From: Deltaproteobacteria bacterium
Lineage (GTDB): Bacteria; Desulfobacterota; Syntrophia; Syntrophales; UBA2185
NCBI GenBank assembly: GCA_026388545.1
Contig: JAPLJS010000109.1
Span: 1-35,497 of the forward strand
DNA: 35,497 nt
Direction: 5' to 3'
The notes under the pieces are model-generated. The model did no database searches, had not been told where the DNA came from, and was given only the letters and a program-made list of their open reading frames with translations. The position numbers and the translations under genes were made by a program. Shown here piece after piece: positions 7,598 through 17,472 of the stretch. Each line of letters opens with the position of its first letter. The stretch's first letter is position 1.

Positions 7598-8046
7598 TGG
7601 GGGAAATACCAACTTACCTTCCCTCCCTTGATTGACTTTTTTTCTAATGTTGACTGTGGGTCTTACATCGAGCCATCTGAATATTTATTGAAAGAAATGA
7701 ACCAGTATTCTGAAGAAATATACTACACTTCAAATGGCAATTCTTGAGGCTGATCTTGGCGAAAGTCGTATGAGGCTGGACTTTTGTTCACCTACCTATA
7801 CGTAAGTTTCGGTTTGGAATCGAAGTGAGGAGTATCACTTATAATCAGTTTTTTAAAGACTCATACTTCTGACACAAAAGTTGCTTATAGCGAATTTTTG
7901 GGATGCTGAAGACAAAATGCCGGTGGGGCACCTTCTTGAGTACATCCATGCATAGTCACTTCCCAAGTTCCACCACCTGCTTCTGGTGGCAGGAGGGGCA
8001 GAAATGTTGGACATGTGAAAGTTTTTATAGTAGTTATCGAAACATT
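7598..8046. other. Intergenic stretch upstream of dndA, no gene recognised
   Basis: Repeat-like debris (two copies of CTCCCTTGAT) lies just after the phosphatase stop. A TATAAT at 7840-7845 could be a -10 box without a clear -35. A hairpin CCACC/GGTGG (7973-7989) is followed by the only strong Shine-Dalgarno of the stretch, AGGAGGGG (7991-7998), which serves a four-codon ORF (ATG at 8004, stop 8016-8018) instead of dndA. The open frame of dndA extends back to 7903, but those residues have no family resemblance. Confidence 0.4.
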
Positions 8047-9174
8047 ATGATTTATCTTGATTGCAATGCTACAACTTCTGTACTGCCGGAGGTGTTTGAG
8101 GCGATGATTCCTTACCTTACGTCCGAATGGGGTAATCCATCCAGTGCGTACAAGTTCGGTTCAAAGCTGAAAACGGTGATCGAGACGGCGCGAGTCCAGG
8201 TGGCGGAATTAATCGGAGCGCGGTCGATGGAGATCATTTTCACTTCTTGCGCAACAGAAAGCAACAACACGGCAATTAATGCAGCACTAAAGGCCAATCC
8301 CCGGAAGCGGCACATTATCACGTCAGCAGTGGAACATACATCGGTGTTGAACTATTGCAAGGCGCTGGAAAAGGAAGACTACCGCATTACCTATCTACCC
8401 GTTGACCGGGAGGGTTTGTTAAAGTTGGCAGATTTGGAGAATGCCATTACAGAGGAGACCTCGGTTGTCTCTTTGATGTGGGCAAATAATGAAACCGGTG
8501 TGCTTTTCCCTGCGAAAGAAATTGGGGAGATTTGTCGGTCCCGTGGAGTGCTGTTCCATTGCGACGCAGTACAAGCAGTCGGGAAGGTCAAGATTGATGC
8601 ACCTGCTGTGCAGGCTGATTACCTATCGCTGACTGGGCACAAGTTTCATGCCCCAAAGGGTATTGGTGCTCTGTATGTTAGGCGTAAGACACCTTTCTCG
8701 CCATTCGTGCAAGGCGGGCATCAGGAGCGCAACATGCGGGGTGGCACAGAGAGCGTACCGCTGATTGTCGCCATCGGCAAAGCCGCTGAACTGGCCCGAA
8801 AAGAGTTGACGAACTACGACAAGACAGTGCGTTTGTTACGTGACGCTCTTGAGGATGGCATTCTACGATCGATTCCGAAAACAGAGTTGAACGGGCACAA
8901 AACCCGACGTCTGGCAAACACGACCAACATTACCTTCCACGGTATCGAATCCGAAGCCCTGCTTATCCTGCTGGACCAGGAAGGTATCTGCGCCTCATCC
9001 GGGTCAGCTTGCCTGGCTGATTCCGATGAACCTTCTCATGTCATCAAGGCCATGAAACCAGAATCGGCAGCATCACGGCACATGATCAGATTCTCACTCG
9101 ATATGGCCAACACAGAAACACAAATCAAAACAGCATTTGCGGCGATAGAGCGCACAATTGAGGTACTTCGATAA
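8047..9174 (+). CDS. dndA: DndA-type cysteine desulfurase of the phosphorothioation system
   Basis: A 375-residue NifS/IscS-fold PLP enzyme that mobilises sulfur from L-cysteine to supply DndC. The start at 8047 is chosen because family homology begins at MIYLDCNATTSVLPEV; the frame upstream to 7903 looks non-coding. The PLP lysine is Lys199 in SLTGHKFHAPKGIGALYVR, and the persulfide-forming Cys322 is in GICASSGSACLADSDEPSHV. RGGTE and the N-terminal GNPSSAYKFG also match. No good Shine-Dalgarno precedes the ATG. It converges on the dndB end of the dnd operon with only 31 bases between stops. That position, with dndC, dndB and dndE homologues next door, supports a DndA role over a housekeeping IscS; no iscU-like scaffold is present. 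Confidence 0.85.
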   Translation: MIYLDCNATTSVLPEVFEAMIPYLTSEWGNPSSAYKFGSKLKTVIETARVQVAELIGARSMEIIFTSCATESNNTAINAALKANPRKRHIITSAVEHTSVLNYCKALEKEDYRITYLPVDREGLLKLADLENAITEETSVVSLMWANNETGVLFPAKEIGEICRSRGVLFHCDAVQAVGKVKIDAPAVQADYLSLTGHKFHAPKGIGALYVRRKTPFSPFVQGGHQERNMRGGTESVPLIVAIGKAAELARKELTNYDKTVRLLRDALEDGILRSIPKTELNGHKTRRLANTTNITFHGIESEALLILLDQEGICASSGSACLADSDEPSHVIKAMKPESAASRHMIRFSLDMANTETQIKTAFAAIERTIEVLR

Positions 9175-9205: not shown

Positions 9206-10435
9206 TTATTTTAGTAATATTTTAAGTTTCTTAGGTAAGGAGTAATCTGCCTTTTTAGTAATCTCAATCAAGGCCATAGTCAACTCAGCTTCTTGTTCTG
9301 AATTCAATTGGTGCAGTACATACAGACACAAACCAACGCCTATCTTTTTAGCTTTAGCTTTTGCGTCGATTTTACCGGCATTCCACAAAACCCCGTCAAA
9401 TACACCACCAGGGTTAACGAAATTTATTTTTTGCAATCCATATTGCAGGATATTCAGCTTGTTCTTTCCAGAAAAATGCTCGTAGAGGCGGGCAAGGACC
9501 TCGAGACCAACGGGACGAAAAAATAAACTCTGGTTATTATACCTTTCCGCTTTAAGCGTGGTGCTCTTTTGCTGGAAATAGCGGTTCAGTGAAGGTTCGT
9601 ACTTGATTGCAAAATCAAGGAACTCGGTAACTATTGCCTTGAAAGCATTTATATTCTCAGGAGCATTATCCAAGGTTGCTCGTGGCTTCCTGTAAAGCTT
9701 TTTAAGACATTTGCAGACGGTATGAATCGCAAGGATACTTGTGAAGCATTCTCGTCCATCCTGGACTAATTGTTCTTTTTTTTCTGTGACCGCAATTTCA
9801 TTGTCATAACCAAATAGCGGATACTCAGCATAGATACGGCGAGTTACGATTGCAGATAATTCGTCCTCATCAATGACCACCTTATCACCTTCAGAAACTG
9901 CCACCGCATTTTTATTGATGTCACAGAATAGCCTTCTGGTTCTGACCTTACCTTCAGCGTCGTCCCTATGCGCAACAAGTAGCACGGGGTACTCATCATG
10001 CTCAAATCTGTCAGGATTATTCTTGGCTGCTGCCTTGATACCCTCAATACGGTGCTGTCCATCTATTGCAAACATCTTTTCCGTTCCATAGAAGATCAGC
10101 AGTCCAAAAGACTCTTCGATTGGTGTCAGATCTGTGATTTCCAGTTTTTGGCCAATAGTAGAAAAGTCCAACTCGATCCAATCGGGTAATCCGCCAAAAA
10201 CGCCAAGAATAATCGAGCTGAAGAATCTGTCGTCTCGCTTGCGGAGGTAAGTCGAAATCTTCGTAACACGCGGCTTCAGTTTTCTCTGGAGATAGTCATC
10301 TAAAGCCTTAGCCTCTCTTATATCCTTTGCAGTGATTACCCGTGCTGAAATTTGCTTTGCGCTCATAAGCGTTGAATAATAAACCCAGTTGCCCATGACG
10401 CCACGAAGACAAGGTGTTTTCCAAGTTGAGTTCAT
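9206..10435 (-). CDS. dndB: DndB, DGQHR-domain phosphorothioation regulator
   Basis: A 409-residue DndB homologue. The defining motif DGQHR is at residues 125-129 within KMFAIDGQHRIEGIKAA, and the N-terminal CLRGVMGNWVYYSTLM pattern is typical of DndB. In characterised Dnd systems DndB is dispensable for chemistry and represses or limits modification. The ATG at 10435 follows the GIY-YIG stop by one base, with GGAGTG as a probable ribosome binding site, so the two are probably translationally coupled. It is the last gene of the minus-strand operon, whereas in classical clusters dndB comes first. Somewhat longer than the usual 360-380 residues. Confidence 0.85.
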   Translation of the reverse strand: MNSTWKTPCLRGVMGNWVYYSTLMSAKQISARVITAKDIREAKALDDYLQRKLKPRVTKISTYLRKRDDRFFSSIILGVFGGLPDWIELDFSTIGQKLEITDLTPIEESFGLLIFYGTEKMFAIDGQHRIEGIKAAAKNNPDRFEHDEYPVLLVAHRDDAEGKVRTRRLFCDINKNAVAVSEGDKVVIDEDELSAIVTRRIYAEYPLFGYDNEIAVTEKKEQLVQDGRECFTSILAIHTVCKCLKKLYRKPRATLDNAPENINAFKAIVTEFLDFAIKYEPSLNRYFQQKSTTLKAERYNNQSLFFRPVGLEVLARLYEHFSGKNKLNILQYGLQKINFVNPGGVFDGVLWNAGKIDAKAKAKKIGVGLCLYVLHQLNSEQEAELTMALIEITKKADYSLPKKLKILLK

Positions 10436-10436
10436 A

Positions 10437-11045
10437 TCATATCACTCCAAATGCTTGCTGCTGCTGTTTGATGTCTAGTGGGAAGTCGCGACGACCGAAG
10501 CACGGATGTATGAACCCGTGTAAGCGTTCTTCGACTACCTCGAGCTCTGCTGAGGTTGCGGATGAAAAGGCAAAGGCAACCCAAATCTGTTCATAGTAGA
10601 GTTGGAGCATTCGATGAACATTTTTACGTTTCCTGATCGTATTCATCGCAGTCGGCAGATAATCTTTCAGGCGTTCCCGTAGTGGACGCTGTGAATTGCG
10701 CTCATTCGAAATGCCAATATAAAAGGCAAACTGTGGGAAGCGGTATAGCAACTGATTCGGCCGAGCATAGAAAATGTAAATGCCGGGTTCATCTTCAGGA
10801 ATGACTTGGTTCAAGTCGTTACGATGCTGAATGTCTGCATAATGATATTCTCGCCAATTCAGTTCGAAAACCCAGGCTGGTGGCAAATGCTGCTCCCAGC
10901 TTTGAGGGTCAACACTAAACTCTCGACGATAACATGAAAAGCGTGCTTCAGGAAGCAGCCCCCGGAAATACCCGTGAGCGTCACCCAGGGAAGCATCGAA
11001 TAAATCAAATGTGGCCTTGGTCATCCTTGCGTTATTTTCCTCCAT
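10437..11045 (-). CDS. GIY-YIG nuclease-domain protein inside the dnd operon
   Basis: A 202-residue protein with a GIY-YIG nuclease core: GIY at residues 88-90 in EPGIYIFYA, FYIG at 108-111 in FAFYIGISNE, a basic segment PLRERLKDYL, and a C-terminal acidic candidate metal ligand in SAELEVVEERLHGFIHPCFG (Glu172/173). The first 80 residues are not recognised and could be a DNA- or partner-binding region. It overlaps the 3' end of the dndE fusion gene by 14 bases and is followed one base later by dndB, so it belongs to the operon. GIY-YIG nucleases act in restriction, repair and homing; operon membership points to restriction or quality control linked to phosphorothioate DNA, as inference. Confidence 0.7.
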   Translation of the reverse strand: MEENNARMTKATFDLFDASLGDAHGYFRGLLPEARFSCYRREFSVDPQSWEQHLPPAWVFELNWREYHYADIQHRNDLNQVIPEDEPGIYIFYARPNQLLYRFPQFAFYIGISNERNSQRPLRERLKDYLPTAMNTIRKRKNVHRMLQLYYEQIWVAFAFSSATSAELEVVEERLHGFIHPCFGRRDFPLDIKQQQQAFGVI

Positions 11046-12516
11046 CTTTCCAGTATTGCCGGGCCAGGCCGGTCAGCAGCTTACCTTGCAGGCGTAAGGC
11101 AGCTTCAGCTTTCTTTAACTTGGTATGGATGACACCGCCAAGGATCATCCGCTGTTCGGTATCGGTCAATGTGTGCGGTGAAAAGTGAACGCCACATTCT
11201 GCCAACTCAGCGAAGTTGGTTTCGTTTGTGCCGGTGGTTAGAAACTTGTCGGCGTCCTGTGATGCCATCCACACCGGGAATCCCCATGACCGACCTTGAC
11301 GAGCAAGAGAACTGAGCAGACCGGCCTTGTTTTCTTTCGGCAAGAGCAGGTGGGCTTCATCAACAAACAGTACCATTTTGAGGGGTTGGATATCGTTCTT
11401 AACGGCCAGTTGCTGGCTCAGTTTTTTAATCAAAAAATTGAGAATGAGGGCAACGGCCAATGCCTTTGTTTCGCTGTCATTGCCGAAGTCCTTGAAGTCG
11501 ATAACCATAGAGTTGCTCAGCCACTCTTCCGGACTAATAGCTGTCTGTGCACTCGCAAACAGGTTAAACCGATCAATTTTCTGGATAATTGCGAGATCGA
11601 CGCCGTTCGCGCCACTATACTCCAACTCCTGTGAGAGTGATGGGAAATCGGGTACGACAAGTTTTTGATAAGCATCACAGATATTGCGCTCCTGCTTGGC
11701 GCCCAGTTGCGGTGCAAAACACCGTATCAGGTTGGCTATTTCGTAAGCAATCTGCGCGTTCTGCGTTGGATTTGTATGCCTATATAACGGATTGATCGGC
11801 AAGTCCTGCTGAATGAGTCGGACGTAGTTCGCTCCGGTTTGTTCCAGAAACCGTGTGCGGTTTTTCCGCTGTTCGACGTTGTTCGGATCATCTTCCAGTT
11901 CGCCTTTCATGTCAAAGAACACAAACCGGACGCCGAAGTTTGCAAGTTGTACCAACAAGTCGAGTGCGAGCTGACTCTTGCCAGTACCAGGTTGTCCTGA
12001 GATAACGAGCAGGCCATTATTGGTGCCGGGGCCATTCACCGACCACTCGGGTGCATCTGTTAAAACCTTGAGCTTCACTTCAGTTTCAACCACAGGCAAG
12101 ATCGGCACTGACGGCTTCACACTGCCGGTAAGCCCCAGGTCATCGCCGGTAAGCTTTAACAATGCAGAAACAAAATGGGCCTGGTCGTTGCCAGACTCGG
12201 CCCATATCTGCCGGAGACGATGGCATCCATACTCGAAATGCCGACGAAATTCCTGGCGGTAACCGCTATCATCAAGGCTGTGCCCTGTGCGGTGGTTTAA
12301 TGCAGTGCGGACCAAATCCCGCAGCTCATCGCCGATAACCTGCTCATCGTTCAAGGTGACGCCTTTAGCATCCTTCGGTTTGAATTCTTTTGGAACTCCT
12401 TCACCCAATGCCAGAAAGAGCGCAGCACGTCCTATAATCGCCTGATTACGGGCGCCAACGCGCGTAAAGATGTTCTCGATAAACTCGCGAGACTCGCTAC
12501 TGGTTTCAAATTTCAT
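11032..12516 (-). CDS. dndE: DndE domain fused to a HerA/FtsK-like ATPase
   Basis: A 494-residue two-domain protein. Residues 1 to about 125 resemble DndE, the small nicked-DNA-binding subunit of the Dnd complex: GRAALFLALGEGVP, the VIGDELRDLVRTALNHR region and YRQEFRRHFEYGCHRL line up with the DndE helical core. Residues about 165-490 form a P-loop ATPase with Walker A GQPGTGKS (174-181) and Walker B VLFVDEAHLLLP (382-393), plus RQGRSWGFPVWMASQD, reminiscent of HerA/VirB4/DptH-type translocases. Classical DndE is only about 110-130 residues and has no ATPase. It starts 14 bases after the dndD remnant and overlaps the GIY-YIG gene. The fused ATPase may energise the complex or couple modification to restriction; both are inference. 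Confidence 0.75.
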   Translation of the reverse strand: MKFETSSESREFIENIFTRVGARNQAIIGRAALFLALGEGVPKEFKPKDAKGVTLNDEQVIGDELRDLVRTALNHRTGHSLDDSGYRQEFRRHFEYGCHRLRQIWAESGNDQAHFVSALLKLTGDDLGLTGSVKPSVPILPVVETEVKLKVLTDAPEWSVNGPGTNNGLLVISGQPGTGKSQLALDLLVQLANFGVRFVFFDMKGELEDDPNNVEQRKNRTRFLEQTGANYVRLIQQDLPINPLYRHTNPTQNAQIAYEIANLIRCFAPQLGAKQERNICDAYQKLVVPDFPSLSQELEYSGANGVDLAIIQKIDRFNLFASAQTAISPEEWLSNSMVIDFKDFGNDSETKALAVALILNFLIKKLSQQLAVKNDIQPLKMVLFVDEAHLLLPKENKAGLLSSLARQGRSWGFPVWMASQDADKFLTTGTNETNFAELAECGVHFSPHTLTDTEQRMILGGVIHTKLKKAEAALRLQGKLLTGLARQYWKDGGK

Positions 12517-12530
12517 GCAATTCTCTCACT

Positions 12531-13508
12531 TTACAGATCGTGTCCAAAATAATCGCTGGTAACTCGGACCCCATAGTCTACACCTTCAGGTCTGCCGTGC
12601 GGGTGTAACGTGTACACACGTGCCAGTCGATTCCTGACTCTGTCAAACAACGGACCTTCGGGATCAACTTCGGAATTGGTGGTAAGTATTACAGACTGAT
12701 GTCCACTGAGATAGAGTTGGTCAAGCACGTTGGCGCGGACTTCCTTATCGAGACGAGCCAACGGTGTATCCACAACCAGTGGCGGCACAAGCTTTGCCAG
12801 TCGTCGCAATGCTTCGTAGAACGCCAACATGCGGACCTGTCGTTGGCCAGCGGATGTATTTGTTTCTTCCCAGGTCACGCGCTTTCCATCTTTGCGGATC
12901 AACCAGCATTGCCAGTGGCTATCAAACTCCATTCCGGCGAACTCACGCTGGCGTTCGGTAATGTCGATCCATAAATCACCGACGTGTTGAGAAATCCGTT
13001 TACGCAATTGGATAGCTGCACGGCTACGGATTTCACCTGCTGCCTCGCGATATCGCGCCGCCAACGCCGCCAAGCTTTCGCCTCTCTGAGCCTTCTCTAC
13101 AATCTCACGCTGATTTGTTTCTTGGCGCTTGGTCTCCCCTATATCGATTTCTAAGCGAGCAATTTCACCTACCAACGCTGCTATTCTCTTGGTTATTTGC
13201 TCGCACTTGGCGATGAGTTCACCTCGCTTCTGATGCAACTCAGTACCCCGTTTGAACGCGATGGTGCTGTGCTGCATCGTCTTTAGTTTCTGGTCGAGTT
13301 CCCGTAACTCAGAATCCATCCGCTCAATGCTCACGCACATATCACCTAAATCACGTATTGAACCAGATGGCGTGGCAAGCCGTTGCCGGACTTGGGCGCT
13401 GATATCGTTGCGGTCGGTCGCGAAAACGCAGTCAGGAATATCTTCTGGCGGTGGGTGAAAGAGACGGTGCAGGGCATTTTCCAGCCGGCTCATAAAAAAA
13501 GCCTCCAC
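12531..13508 (-). CDS. dndD: DndD lacking its N-terminal ATPase half (probable truncated gene)
   Basis: A 325-residue frame from GTG at 13508 matches only the C-terminal half of DndD, an SMC/Rad50-like ATPase usually of about 650-700 residues. Present: a coiled coil (about 60-140), the ABC-signature-like TSAGQRQ (218-224), Walker B PLVVDTPLARLD (243-254), and the QSVILTTNSEV segment. Missing: the N-terminal Walker A head. The frame stays open without ATG back to a TAG at 13611-13613, then meets the HNH gene end at 13689, so there is no room for the other half in any frame. Either a deletion removed the 5' half or this lineage uses a shortened DndD with ATPase supplied by the DndE fusion. Loss of function seems likelier. 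Confidence 0.7.
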   Translation of the reverse strand: MEAFFMSRLENALHRLFHPPPEDIPDCVFATDRNDISAQVRQRLATPSGSIRDLGDMCVSIERMDSELRELDQKLKTMQHSTIAFKRGTELHQKRGELIAKCEQITKRIAALVGEIARLEIDIGETKRQETNQREIVEKAQRGESLAALAARYREAAGEIRSRAAIQLRKRISQHVGDLWIDITERQREFAGMEFDSHWQCWLIRKDGKRVTWEETNTSAGQRQVRMLAFYEALRRLAKLVPPLVVDTPLARLDKEVRANVLDQLYLSGHQSVILTTNSEVDPEGPLFDRVRNRLARVYTLHPHGRPEGVDYGVRVTSDYFGHDL

Positions 13509-13688
13509 GTCAGGCTGAAGTGCGTAATCCTCCGGGACGTTACCGAAGACATCGTCTTTGACTTGGGGGATCTTCGGCTCAACGGTTGATTTGGCGAAGG
13601 AGTAAAGATACTAACGGATGTCGGCCGGACTCGTCAACTCACGGGCCACGAGAAAGTCAGGAAGTCATTGAAAGGAATGCTGAATCAG

Positions 13689-14594
13689 CTATCGGCTTGG
13701 GAAGCCGTGCCTCTTGCGATGCCAGTCGAGATAGGTGTATTCTGGCCAATACTTCGGATCGCTGGGCAAAAAAATCCTTCGCCCCTCGAAATCCGCGAGG
13801 CGTTGTCCCGGCGCCCCATCTTCGATGAATTTTTCTCTGTTTAGAAGTACTCGGTAATCATCGTTCAATGACCAAAGACCGCGATCAAACTGCCAGTGGG
13901 CATTCTTCGAGAGCGCTAACCCATTGCGAGGGTCATTGCTACGGGAATCACTGAATGCATGAATATGTGCCGCATCTACAATGCTCTGCATTTCTAAGGT
14001 TGTTAACCGATAACCCGTAAGAGCGCAGGTGTGTTTGTAGGCGAGAACGACTACCTCAATGCGAAAGCGAGCATCTCGCCCCATTTGAATGCTCGCTCTG
14101 TAAAGTTCTTCGTATTCCCTGACTTCAGGCACCGTCGGTTTGATTTTAAGCATGCTGAAGAGTGCCGCTCTTTCTTCAGGAAGAAAATAGGGTTCCGTTT
14201 CAATTAGTATTCTCCGTGCCCGATCACGAAATTTATTATCAGCAAGACAGTCGAAGAAACTTGGGTCAATCATGATCATTGTGGTCAGTTTCTTATCTGG
14301 TGAAAGTTTGCCGTCTGCCGTCAAAGGTTGCCACATTCCAGATGAACCAAGGTGGTGGAACGGTAATCTCACTTCCGGAGCCTGCTTGCGACGTTTGGCT
14401 ACAACTGACCAAAACGCGCTGAACCTGAATGCAAGATCAGGAGAAAGCGTAACTTCGCGGCTCGTAATCTCACCCTTTTCTACCATTTCCATGATGACAA
14501 GCAAGAGAAGTGGTTTATGAGGTGCTGGACCGTGTGAACGGTCAATCCGTAACGTTGCGAGTTTTTGTAACCAATATTGTTGATTTTCAATCAT
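13689..14594 (-). CDS. HNH nuclease with DNA sulfur-binding-domain-like N-terminus
   Basis: A 301-residue protein from ATG at 14594, four bases after the dndC stop; the frame extends further upstream but overlaps dndC and is not chosen. Residues 19-30 (RSHGPAPHKPLL) carry Arg19, His26 and Lys27 with the spacing I associate with the phosphorothioate-reading SBD of ScoMcrA-type enzymes, and LPFHHLGSSGMW (77-88) fits the pocket segment YPFxxL. The C-terminal half is an HNH nuclease: YKHTCALTG, VDAAHI (His210), NGLALSKNAHWQFDRGLWSL (Asn224, His233). Known SBD-HNH enzymes cut phosphorothioated DNA. Lying between dndC and dndD, it would be expressed with the writers, which would be self-toxic unless its activity is gated. 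Confidence 0.75.
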   Translation of the reverse strand: MIENQQYWLQKLATLRIDRSHGPAPHKPLLLLVIMEMVEKGEITSREVTLSPDLAFRFSAFWSVVAKRRKQAPEVRLPFHHLGSSGMWQPLTADGKLSPDKKLTTMIMIDPSFFDCLADNKFRDRARRILIETEPYFLPEERAALFSMLKIKPTVPEVREYEELYRASIQMGRDARFRIEVVVLAYKHTCALTGYRLTTLEMQSIVDAAHIHAFSDSRSNDPRNGLALSKNAHWQFDRGLWSLNDDYRVLLNREKFIEDGAPGQRLADFEGRRIFLPSDPKYWPEYTYLDWHRKRHGFPSR

Positions 14595-14598
14595 CGCG

Positions 14599-15909
14599 TT
14601 AATTGACGGTAGGAGTTTTATTCTGAAGGGCACTACAATAAAGATCATCTTTGAGTATATTAAGAAGGTCGTCAGGCAAGCCGTGGGCGCGGTGGCTTTC
14701 GCTATATTCCTCCACTTTGTTGAGCATGCGGCGCAATGTGTTTGCACGGATGCTAAGTTCCTGGGCAACTTCTTCTTCCATTTCACGAAGGCGGTTCAAT
14801 TCGTTGAGATCGTTGTTCATGATGACACCCCTCTGTTTATTGATGATCCGGGAGACACCCCAACCGTCGTCGGGGTTTCGTGCCGATTTCCATAACTGTT
14901 GGATTAAAAGGAGCTCTTCGGACGTAATAAGCATCATGCTGGTTTCTTCTTGTAACTTGAGCAGGCGTTTCAGGAGTTCGCGGCGACCTTTGATGAGAAG
15001 TGGTCCCGGACCTTCGTTGCCATTCATACGGCGGTTGTCTCGCCAGCCGTTGTCCGGGTTACGGAATTCCAGGAGCGTTTCACGGAACTCGATAAGATGT
15101 TCCATCCGTTCATCACCGGCGGCAAGCAGGCCTTCGCCAGCCTTGTCCCGCTCGACGACGGTGCAGGTCCAACAGCCGAAGCGGGAGTTGCCGCAGGCTG
15201 GGGTGCTGGTGTCAATCTGAATGGGGCATTCGCCATTGGAGGCATTCGCGTAAAGCTTATAGAGAACGCGATTGTCGCTACCCCAGGGGTTGGGTTTTTG
15301 CAGTAAGTATGCCCATACCTCCTCAGTAGTGAGGAATTCAATAGGGTTGGACACCCAGACGCGCGGCAGGTCGGGGTGACGAAGCAAACTATTGCGTGAC
15401 TCGCGGCCTGCCATGGTTTGTGCCCGCGTGGAACTCTCTGCCCGACGTGCCCCCAGGTGCAAGATCGCCTCGCCCCAATGGCCGATCCGCTGATTCACAA
15501 AAACGGTCACGGGGTCAATCTTCAGGCGTTGCGTGCACCAGCGGAAGGTGCGGTTGGGAGGAGGATAGCCCCGTCCGATGATGTTCACCCAAAACGACTG
15601 CTCGGGCGGTGGCTTGAGTAGCTTCACTTCGATGTTTAGTCCATTCTGTTGGGAGAATTTATTCATCCGTGACAACGTGCCTTCAACTATTTCGGTAATA
15701 GCGGGGATTTCTACACGCGTATCCGTGCAGAGGACAGCTATAGGCTTTTTCCGTTGCGAGGGAGGGACTGTCAAGACAGAGTCAAAAATCAGTGATGCAA
15801 GCATTGTACTATCCTTGCCGCCACTGAACCCTACTAGCCACGGGCGTTCATCCGCTTCATAGAGCTGAGCAAGAGAAACTATAATATCTCTGTAAGAATT
15901 ATCTGCCAT
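14599..15909 (-). CDS. dndC: DndC, phosphorothioation sulfurtransferase (PP-loop ATPase, FeS)
   Basis: A 436-residue DndC of the PAPS-reductase fold; it activates the DNA backbone phosphate or carries sulfur during phosphorothioation. The ATP-binding PP-loop SGGKDS is at residues 29-34 in WLVGFSGGKDSTMLASL. Four cysteines positioned for a 4Fe-4S cluster are Cys125 (TFRWCTQRLK), Cys239, Cys246 and Cys249 (PACGNSRFGCWTC); the 7- and 3-residue spacing is characteristic. I chose ATG 15909 because homology begins there (MADNSYRDIIVSLAQLYEAD) and a promoter-like TTGACA overlaps the alternative ATG at 16002. It is the first gene of the minus-strand operon, with the HNH gene starting four bases after its stop. 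Confidence 0.9.
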   Translation of the reverse strand: MADNSYRDIIVSLAQLYEADERPWLVGFSGGKDSTMLASLIFDSVLTVPPSQRKKPIAVLCTDTRVEIPAITEIVEGTLSRMNKFSQQNGLNIEVKLLKPPPEQSFWVNIIGRGYPPPNRTFRWCTQRLKIDPVTVFVNQRIGHWGEAILHLGARRAESSTRAQTMAGRESRNSLLRHPDLPRVWVSNPIEFLTTEEVWAYLLQKPNPWGSDNRVLYKLYANASNGECPIQIDTSTPACGNSRFGCWTCTVVERDKAGEGLLAAGDERMEHLIEFRETLLEFRNPDNGWRDNRRMNGNEGPGPLLIKGRRELLKRLLKLQEETSMMLITSEELLLIQQLWKSARNPDDGWGVSRIINKQRGVIMNNDLNELNRLREMEEEVAQELSIRANTLRRMLNKVEEYSESHRAHGLPDDLLNILKDDLYCSALQNKTPTVN

Positions 15910-15980
15910 GCGAACCAAGCTCTGATGGATATCTATGCAGTTAAGGCGCCTTTTGGCCCAAGATGAGTTGTTCCGTATTT

Positions 15981-16009
15981 TCTTTACTTCCGGCGAAGTC
16001 ACATGTCAA
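15981..16009 (-). promoter_or_regulatory. Candidate promoter of the dnd operon
   Basis: On the minus strand a perfect -35 TTGACA (16009-16004) is followed after 17 bases by a weak -10 TAAAGA (15986-15981). Transcription would start near 15974, upstream of the dndC ATG at 15909 and downstream of the alternative ATG at 16002. Confidence 0.35.
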
Positions 16010-16758: not shown

Positions 16759-16884
16759 ATGAAGAGGAGACATAATTCCTGCTTCATGGGCGCTATCTTT
16801 ATGCTGATTTCAGTATTGCTTCAAGGAAAGTTTCTTTCATGCCGGATTTCAGTTCTTCCTGGGTATAGCCCAGAGCTTCAATAG
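16759..16884 (+). pseudogene. 5' remnant of a secreted-protein gene, cut off by the HEPN/MNT pair
   Basis: A 41-codon frame begins four bases after a near-perfect Shine-Dalgarno. Its first residues (MKRRHNSCFMGAIFMLISVL) are a classical signal peptide or membrane anchor: basic start, then a hydrophobic core. From about residue 14 on, the DNA is the 3' end of the antisense MNT gene (stop at 16799), so the mature protein is replaced by antisense MNT sequence and the frame ends at TAG 16882-16884. The simplest reading is that insertion of the HEPN/MNT pair disrupted an exported-protein gene at about 16,790. Confidence 0.4.
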
Positions 16885-17113
16885 GTTCAAAAACCCTGCC
16901 TGCCGCGATACCCAGAAGTTCGAGGCGTTCTCTCAGGTTCATATTTCTGAAATCATCGGCTATTACGATGACGTCGATATCGCTGTCTTCTCTGGGGTTG
17001 CCGCCGGCATAAGAACCGAACAGAATAATTTTTTGAGGTCTAACCCCCAGCTTTTCGATTTCCTGATGATACTTTTTGATTATTTCTTGAATTTCTCGTT
17101 CTGTTTTAACCAT
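16799..17113 (-). CDS. mntA: MNT-type minimal nucleotidyltransferase (antitoxin of HEPN/MNT pair)
   Basis: A 104-residue minimal nucleotidyltransferase with an intact active-site motif: Gly33-Ser34 in IILFGSYAGGN and D45-x-D47 in REDSDIDVIVIADD. In characterised HEPN/MNT modules the MNT protein polyadenylates or AMPylates the HEPN toxin and so silences it. The ATG overlaps the end of the HEPN gene by 34 bases and has its ribosome binding site AAAGGATG inside it, so the two are co-translated, toxin first. The 3' end abuts the broken secreted-protein gene at 16759-16884. Confidence 0.85.
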   Translation of the reverse strand: MVKTEREIQEIIKKYHQEIEKLGVRPQKIILFGSYAGGNPREDSDIDVIVIADDFRNMNLRERLELLGIAAGRVFEPIEALGYTQEELKSGMKETFLEAILKSA

Positions 17114-17472
17114 GCAATTACATCCTTTGTCTGTTCGAGATAAGAGGCCACGATATCAGCAGGATATACTTCAACAAGCTTTGTGAAATCTTCCGGGTAT
17201 CGGGTAATAATGCTGGCGTTGTTTATCTTGGACACGAATTCGAGGTGTTTTTGGGAAAAATTGATTTCTGCAAGCTTAGTTAAATAGAGGAGGTTATGGG
17301 TTTTTGGCGATGGTGAATTCGTTGTTTCCACCGCAATAGCTTTTAACATCTTTTCGAGCGCCAGATGGCACATGAAAACCACATAAATATATCTGCCGGA
17401 TTTCAGCATATGCTCTGCGGTGGCGAGGTCGTATTCGGCAGAAATCATGAAATTTCCCGCATCTTTTCTCAT
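17080..17472 (-). CDS. HEPN-domain protein (toxin partner of MNT)
   Basis: A 130-residue all-helical HEPN protein: FMISAEYDLATAEHMLKSGR, then YVVFMCHLALEKMLKAI, then KTHNLLYLTKLAEI, ending with ITRYPEDFTKL. This is the pattern of HEPN proteins paired with minimal nucleotidyltransferases. I do not see the R-x4-6-H ribonuclease motif of the RNase-active HEPN subgroup, so toxicity by RNA cleavage is uncertain. TATAAT lies at 17489-17484, only 11 bases before the ATG, and there is no Shine-Dalgarno, suggesting a very short leader. Upstream of and overlapping the MNT gene. Confidence 0.8.
   Translation of the reverse strand: MRKDAGNFMISAEYDLATAEHMLKSGRYIYVVFMCHLALEKMLKAIAVETTNSPSPKTHNLLYLTKLAEINFSQKHLEFVSKINNASIITRYPEDFTKLVEVYPADIVASYLEQTKDVIAWLKQNEKFKK

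Follow-up and report, generated by a model that had tools for sequence, protein, structure and literature searches.

A predicted phosphorothioate-reading nuclease gene in place of the N-terminal half of dndD within a DndE::HerA-type dnd operon

Nucleases that join a DNA sulfur-binding domain (SBD) to an HNH domain read phosphorothioates and should be lethal beside the genes that write them. How, then, does a gene of this kind come to lie directly behind dndC in the genome of a deltaproteobacterium? The window analyzed here is the whole stretch of DNA in which this arrangement occurs, 35,497 nucleotides long.

The nuclease and its predicted sulfur pocket

The gene (13689..14594, minus strand) encodes a protein of 301 amino acids. 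Reading the sequence directly places its start codon 4 bp past the dndC stop, and the proposed coupling to dndC is borne out. The protein matches NF045808, "phosphorothioated DNA-binding restriction endonuclease," with 102.3 bits (E 2e-29), under the curated cut-off of 180 bits, and two homologues score 102.7 and 107.3 bits. The window protein and its homologues are a divergent branch relative to this model.

The SBD spans residues 1 to 150 (14145..14594, minus strand) and is identified by profile, alignment, and structural match. A profile of 17 homologues searched against the PDB matches SBDHga1 (8h0l) with E 4.6e-10, and in the alignment PHK pairs with PHK and LPFHHL with LPYYHL. An AlphaFold2 model built from 15 homologues has a mean pLDDT of 67.6, with most of the SBD at 70 to 94 and the HNH core of poor to low confidence. 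Its best structural match is again 8h0l, the SBD of Hga (Z 14.7, rmsd 2.7 over 137 residues), followed by the SBDs of SprMcrA (Z 11.4 to 11.7) and ScoMcrA (Z 11.3 to 11.4). Rows 1 to 7 of the VIA-align comparison are all SBDs, and the next fold is an ORC winged helix at Z 7.1. The original prediction had recognized an SBD from a short N-terminal motif, and the profile, the PDB match, and the superposition on ScoMcrA all uphold it.

In ScoMcrA, the sulfur pocket is formed by H116, R117, and P165 (PMC6224610). The predicted pocket of the window SBD comprises H26 and K27 together with L77 and P78. H26, K27, and P78 are the likely counterparts of ScoMcrA H116, R/K117, and P165, a mapping we infer from the SBDHga alignment, the motif order, and the published pocket (PMC6224610). 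H26, K27, P28, and P78 are invariant in a 15-row alignment, and H26, K27, and P78 are kept in almost all homologues.

The HNH_2 nuclease domain occupies residues 190 to 244 (13863..14027, minus strand; Pfam E 7e-12). Its residues H210, N224, and H233 are invariant across 17 homologues, in keeping with the earlier claim that the domain is intact, and the gene is under purifying selection (omega 0.08 to 0.18). Domain profiles, invariant residues, and the structural match rule out chance or misannotation. A phage origin of the nuclease was rejected, as the phage matches were weak and partial. Pfam and NCBIfam scans of the 301 residues found no NTPase domain of the gating SspE/DndI kind.

An SBD also occurs in a quite different protein, a 1904-amino-acid DndH/MADS8-like HerA protein (L088:4225-9936, on contig C1 of genome G175) that carries it at the C terminus. 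NF045808 positions 16 to 150 align there with residues 1764 to 1902, with the motifs APHKPLLLL and YPFFHL, and the gene lies downstream of mad7-like and mad6/SspF-like genes. Here the SBD is apparently used by a HerA-type defense system.

A half-length dndD and a writer that is probably disabled

Upstream of the nuclease gene lies dndC (14599..16002, minus strand), a PP-loop sulfurtransferase with SGGKDS and CWTC motifs that scores 372 bits against TIGR03183, above the cut-off of 290; its real start is probably near 15924. It has an omega of 0.05 to 0.15 against relatives, and conservation extends to its C-terminal region, which is the DndD-binding part in E. coli B7A. Farther upstream (16799-17472) is a toxin-antitoxin-like pair of the HEPN/nucleotidyltransferase (MNT) type.

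Downstream of the nuclease gene and the half-length dndD treated below, dndE is fused to a HerA-type ATPase (11032..12516, minus strand; PF08870 E 2e-7 plus AAA_10, and alignment). The DndE part scores 31.8 bits against PF08870, above the cut-off of 25, and the HerA motor motifs are intact (Walker A GQPGTGKS, Walker B VLFVDEAH). dndB, a DGQHR protein (9206..10435, minus strand; PF14072 E 7e-26), is followed by a convergent dndA/NifS-type cysteine desulfurase (7903..9174, plus strand) that matches NifS and DndA models and has an SSGSAC loop; its homology starts near 8047. Between dndE::HerA and dndB, a 202-amino-acid GIY-YIG-like protein (10437..11045, minus strand) is a second likely nuclease. 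Its motifs, GIYIFYAR ... FYIGISN, were read from the sequence; there is no Pfam match and only an NCBIfam match at E 0.038. Blastp and tblastn comparisons show that the gene is absent from the operons of G606, G775, and G201, discussed below.

The gene that follows the nuclease, here called dndD' (12531..13493, minus strand), is the C-terminal half of dndD, as judged from TIGR03185 and from alignment with full-length DndD. It covers only positions 397 to 635 of the 650 in TIGR03185. The signature SAGQ, the Walker B-like VVDTP, and the H-loop are kept, and Walker A is absent. Translation would start at an ATG at 13493, with a strong Shine-Dalgarno sequence (GGAGG) 8 nt before it. The adjoining stretch at 13494..13592 (minus strand) aligns with dndD codons from 337 onward and marks the junction; it is common to the window and locus L022 at the nucleotide level. 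The earlier placement of the nuclease inside the writer operon is correct in its location, but it missed that no more than the C-terminal half of dndD lies downstream.

Two Verrucomicrobiota genomes, G606 and G775, show the intact arrangement: dndC, dndD, dndE::HerA, dndB, and a convergent dndA. Their full-length DndD proteins (693 and 694 amino acids, respectively) have Walker A, and the HNH gene is absent between dndC and dndE::HerA. In both, dndD starts within 5 bp of the dndC stop, as the nuclease gene does in the window, and the homology of the window DndD to these proteins begins at residue 337. By this sequence comparison, therefore, the SBD-HNH gene is in the position of dndD codons 1 to 336.

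The missing half was sought elsewhere. In the window's genome, with an estimated completeness of 100%, there is no other dndD or dndD N-half. The G606 N-half as query found none in G000, G201, G027, G057, G197, and G199; since, among the seven genomes, it recovered only the G606 control, an N-half acting in trans was rejected. No full-length dndD was found in the 12 genomes searched.

Phosphorothioation in Streptomyces lividans is lost when any one of dndA, dndC, dndD, or dndE is deleted in frame (PMC2653506). Because dndD is halved and DndD is essential in S. lividans, the window operon should not write phosphorothioate, a step we infer from sequence with an essentiality known from canonical operons with a small DndE and not from the DndE::HerA type. 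Our favored reading, which we consider reasonably likely, is that, in a dnd operon of the DndE::HerA type that is now disabled as a writer, a type IV-like nuclease with SBD and HNH domains has taken the place of the N-terminal, ATP-binding half of dndD. Such an operon would no longer make phosphorothioates, and host DNA would be unmarked, so that the nuclease could be co-expressed safely. The nuclease would bind phosphorothioate in incoming DNA via H26, K27, and P78, and the HNH domain would cut; the remaining dnd genes would be slow relics or serve some other purpose. The apparent "suicide" is thereby probably resolved by loss of writing and not by gating, as dndD is halved and no gating NTPase was found.

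The original prediction had instead proposed a working writer with a gated or self-sparing effector, and this part is not supported: the first half of dndD is displaced, its N-half is found nowhere else in the genome, and no NTPase gate was detected beside the HNH domain. Of the readings considered, we regard a writer that is still active, with an SBD-HNH effector (gated or context-specific) as an alternative to dndFGH, as the least probable, on the same grounds. In its favor, the gene is part of the operon and probably co-translated with dndC, and SBD-HNH genes occur beside intact dnd genes elsewhere, for instance on a Chlorohelix plasmid, with such a role proposed in PMC10853773. On that plasmid, from Candidatus Chlorohelix (L077:7929-15056), an SBD-HNH relative with ~31% identity is convergent to an apparently intact dndBCDEB cluster.

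A different objection to a disabled writer is that dndC, dndD', and dndE::HerA are intact and look constrained, while a dead writer should decay. With the C-half of DndD in the intact pair as reference, the amino acid change of dndD' between the window and G201 has a ratio of 0.95 relative to dndE::HerA (bootstrap 0.71 to 1.29) and of 1.10 relative to dndC (bootstrap 0.78 to 1.56). By these ratios, dndD' gives no sign of relaxation relative to either gene. A truncation inherited from a common ancestor would mean that selection has kept dndD'; independent and recent truncations would make the lack of relaxation uninformative. Comparing stop codons between the window and L022 gives no proof of selection, since the common junction segment is ~5% diverged, a distance at which an unconstrained 975-bp frame would stay open with P about 0.3, and since identity along the loci is mosaic, as recombination would produce.

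These observations bear on a second alternative, rewiring of the operon and not its death. DndC, the half-length DndD', and DndE::HerA might form one DNA-scanning machine with the SBD-HNH protein as its nuclease arm and the HerA motor in place of the lost ABC ATPase half. Such a complex may only read and restrict phosphorothioated DNA, or may still write by another route. The retained signature, Walker B, and H-loop, the GGAGG-8 nt-ATG start, the open frame in both the window and G201, the rate ratios, and the intact HerA Walker motifs all fit. Yet dndD' and dndE::HerA stand together in two loci only, several sister loci have lost them, and the rate ratios say nothing if the truncations arose separately and recently. 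We also know of no DndD that works without Walker A. We consider rewiring unlikely.

Relatives of the dndC-nuclease pair and their erosion

Scanning GTDB genomes for the nuclease yielded 19 relatives. In at least seven loci (the window, L021, L022, L024, L028, L034, and G201) dndC is directly followed by the nuclease gene, and the gene order is thus recurrent, a point on which the original prediction had hung. In G201, dndC and the nuclease are at the ends of two different contigs, whose ends fit together.

G201 belongs to another phylum (Verrucomicrobiota) and also has dndD' (317 amino acids) and dndE::HerA. Its dndD homology is traceable to residue 345, compared with 337 in the window, which places the junctions within about 8 codons of each other, and the untranslated stretch between the nuclease and the dndD' start contains a frameshift. 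L022, from an Armatimonadota metagenome-assembled genome (MAG), has the window's junction at the nucleotide level (95% over 322 bp) and retains just 39 dndD codons. An assembly artifact of a single MAG is unlikely, since G201 repeats the layout and L022 repeats the junction.

Erosion is visible at other loci. While dndD' and dndE::HerA are kept together in the window and G201, several sisters have lost both. In L021, the gene after the nuclease is a dndA truncated after amino acid 161; in L032 and L035, scraps of dndA adjoin a nuclease gene without dndC. A Verrucomicrobia contig (L031:200-3912) has a dndC broken by in-frame TGA codons ~2 kb upstream of an open nuclease gene. The nuclease stands alone among unrelated genes in L023, L026, L029, and L030, and solo SBD-HNH homologues occur in G036, G096, G203, and G204, where dndC was not found.

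DndE::HerA is missing from the genomes with the dndC-HNH pair alone, in a search that recovered four positive controls. It occurs in three of 388 genomes sampled from Verrucomicrobiota, including G606 and G775, and in none of 343 genomes from the phylum of G204 or 291 from that of G199. A search of 395 genomes from the phylum of the window itself gave no fusion beyond the one in the window. Viral contigs yielded none, and plasmids only weak ATPase matches.

On the simplest history, the N-half of dndD was displaced once, in an ancestral operon that then eroded repeatedly. In a dndC tree, the loci with the HNH gene fall together at the cost of one change, but with weak support (64/33). The HNH tree requires four changes in linkage to dndC, and the trees therefore do not prove a single origin with subsequent losses. 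Identity along the dndC-HNH region (window 13479-15917) is a mosaic when compared in 150-base steps with L022, L034, and L021, ranging for example from 74 to 97% against L022. For L021 against the window, dS is 0.40 in HNH and 1.38 in dndC. The mosaic and the unequal dS suggest recombination within the pair.

The repeated survival of the pair raises a further reading, a minimal two-gene module in which DndC and the SBD-HNH protein would work without DndD or DndE, with DndC, for example, controlling or assisting the nuclease. The two genes are the combination most often kept together, in MAGs labeled Deltaproteobacteria, Syntrophobacterales, and Armatimonadota; dndC is under strong purifying selection, and those genomes lack dndD and DndE::HerA. 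However, much of the selection on dndC may be older than the loss of dndD. Some of the contigs with the pair are short, and the genomes include several incomplete MAGs. Solo HNH genes without dndC are also common in the same family, which argues that the nuclease does not require dndC. We judge a two-gene module to be very unlikely.

Implications and relation to known systems

The window provides a concrete case, seen in more than one phylum, in which a nuclease appears in place of half of a writer gene that is essential. If the disabled-writer reading is right, a writing operon can be converted into one that hunts, and a truncated dndD should be looked for wherever an SBD-HNH gene adjoins dnd genes, before any self-sparing mechanism is invoked. 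Should the remaining genes still function, the question becomes what half a DndD and a DndE::HerA motor can do.

Parts of this picture are already published. Rakesh, Aravind, and Krishnan (2024) described SBD(wHTH)-SAD-HNH nucleases near dnd modification genes, proposed as restriction components, and DndE-HerA fusions as well (PMC10853773). Lutz and colleagues (2020) found <3.6% of SBD-HNH-type nucleases near dnd genes (PMC7461809). Explanations for the few neighbors reported have been conjectural; among them is the suggestion by the same authors that the dnd cluster in question may carry mutations. We did not find an in-place replacement of half of dndD in the main texts of the open-licence papers searched.

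SspE and DndI resemble the window protein as phosphorothioate-sensing nucleases, a property that is predicted for the latter. They have NTPase activity and act against unmodified DNA, in hosts whose own DNA is marked, whereas the window nuclease has no detected NTPase gate. The SBD(wHTH)-SAD-HNH proteins encoded downstream of dnd genes (Rakesh et al. 2024) likewise place an SBD and an HNH domain in a dnd neighborhood; in contrast to them, the window protein lacks a SAD/SRA domain, its gene lies inside the operon, and the writer is truncated and not intact. The operon itself is most like the clade 3 Dnd operons of Rakesh et al. (PMC10853773), in which DndE is fused to HerA/FtsK and with which it shares dndC, a DndD-type ABC protein, dndE::HerA, dndB, and dndA, except that the window DndD is without its N-terminal half and an SBD-HNH protein is encoded instead. 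The nuclease itself resembles the EcoWI/SprMcrA-type SBD-HNH enzymes (NF045808) in having an SBD followed by HNH in ~300 amino acids, no SRA domain, the HK and P pocket residues, and the SBD fold. Those enzymes are usually encoded away from dnd genes (PMC7461809), whereas the window gene appears to replace half of dndD.
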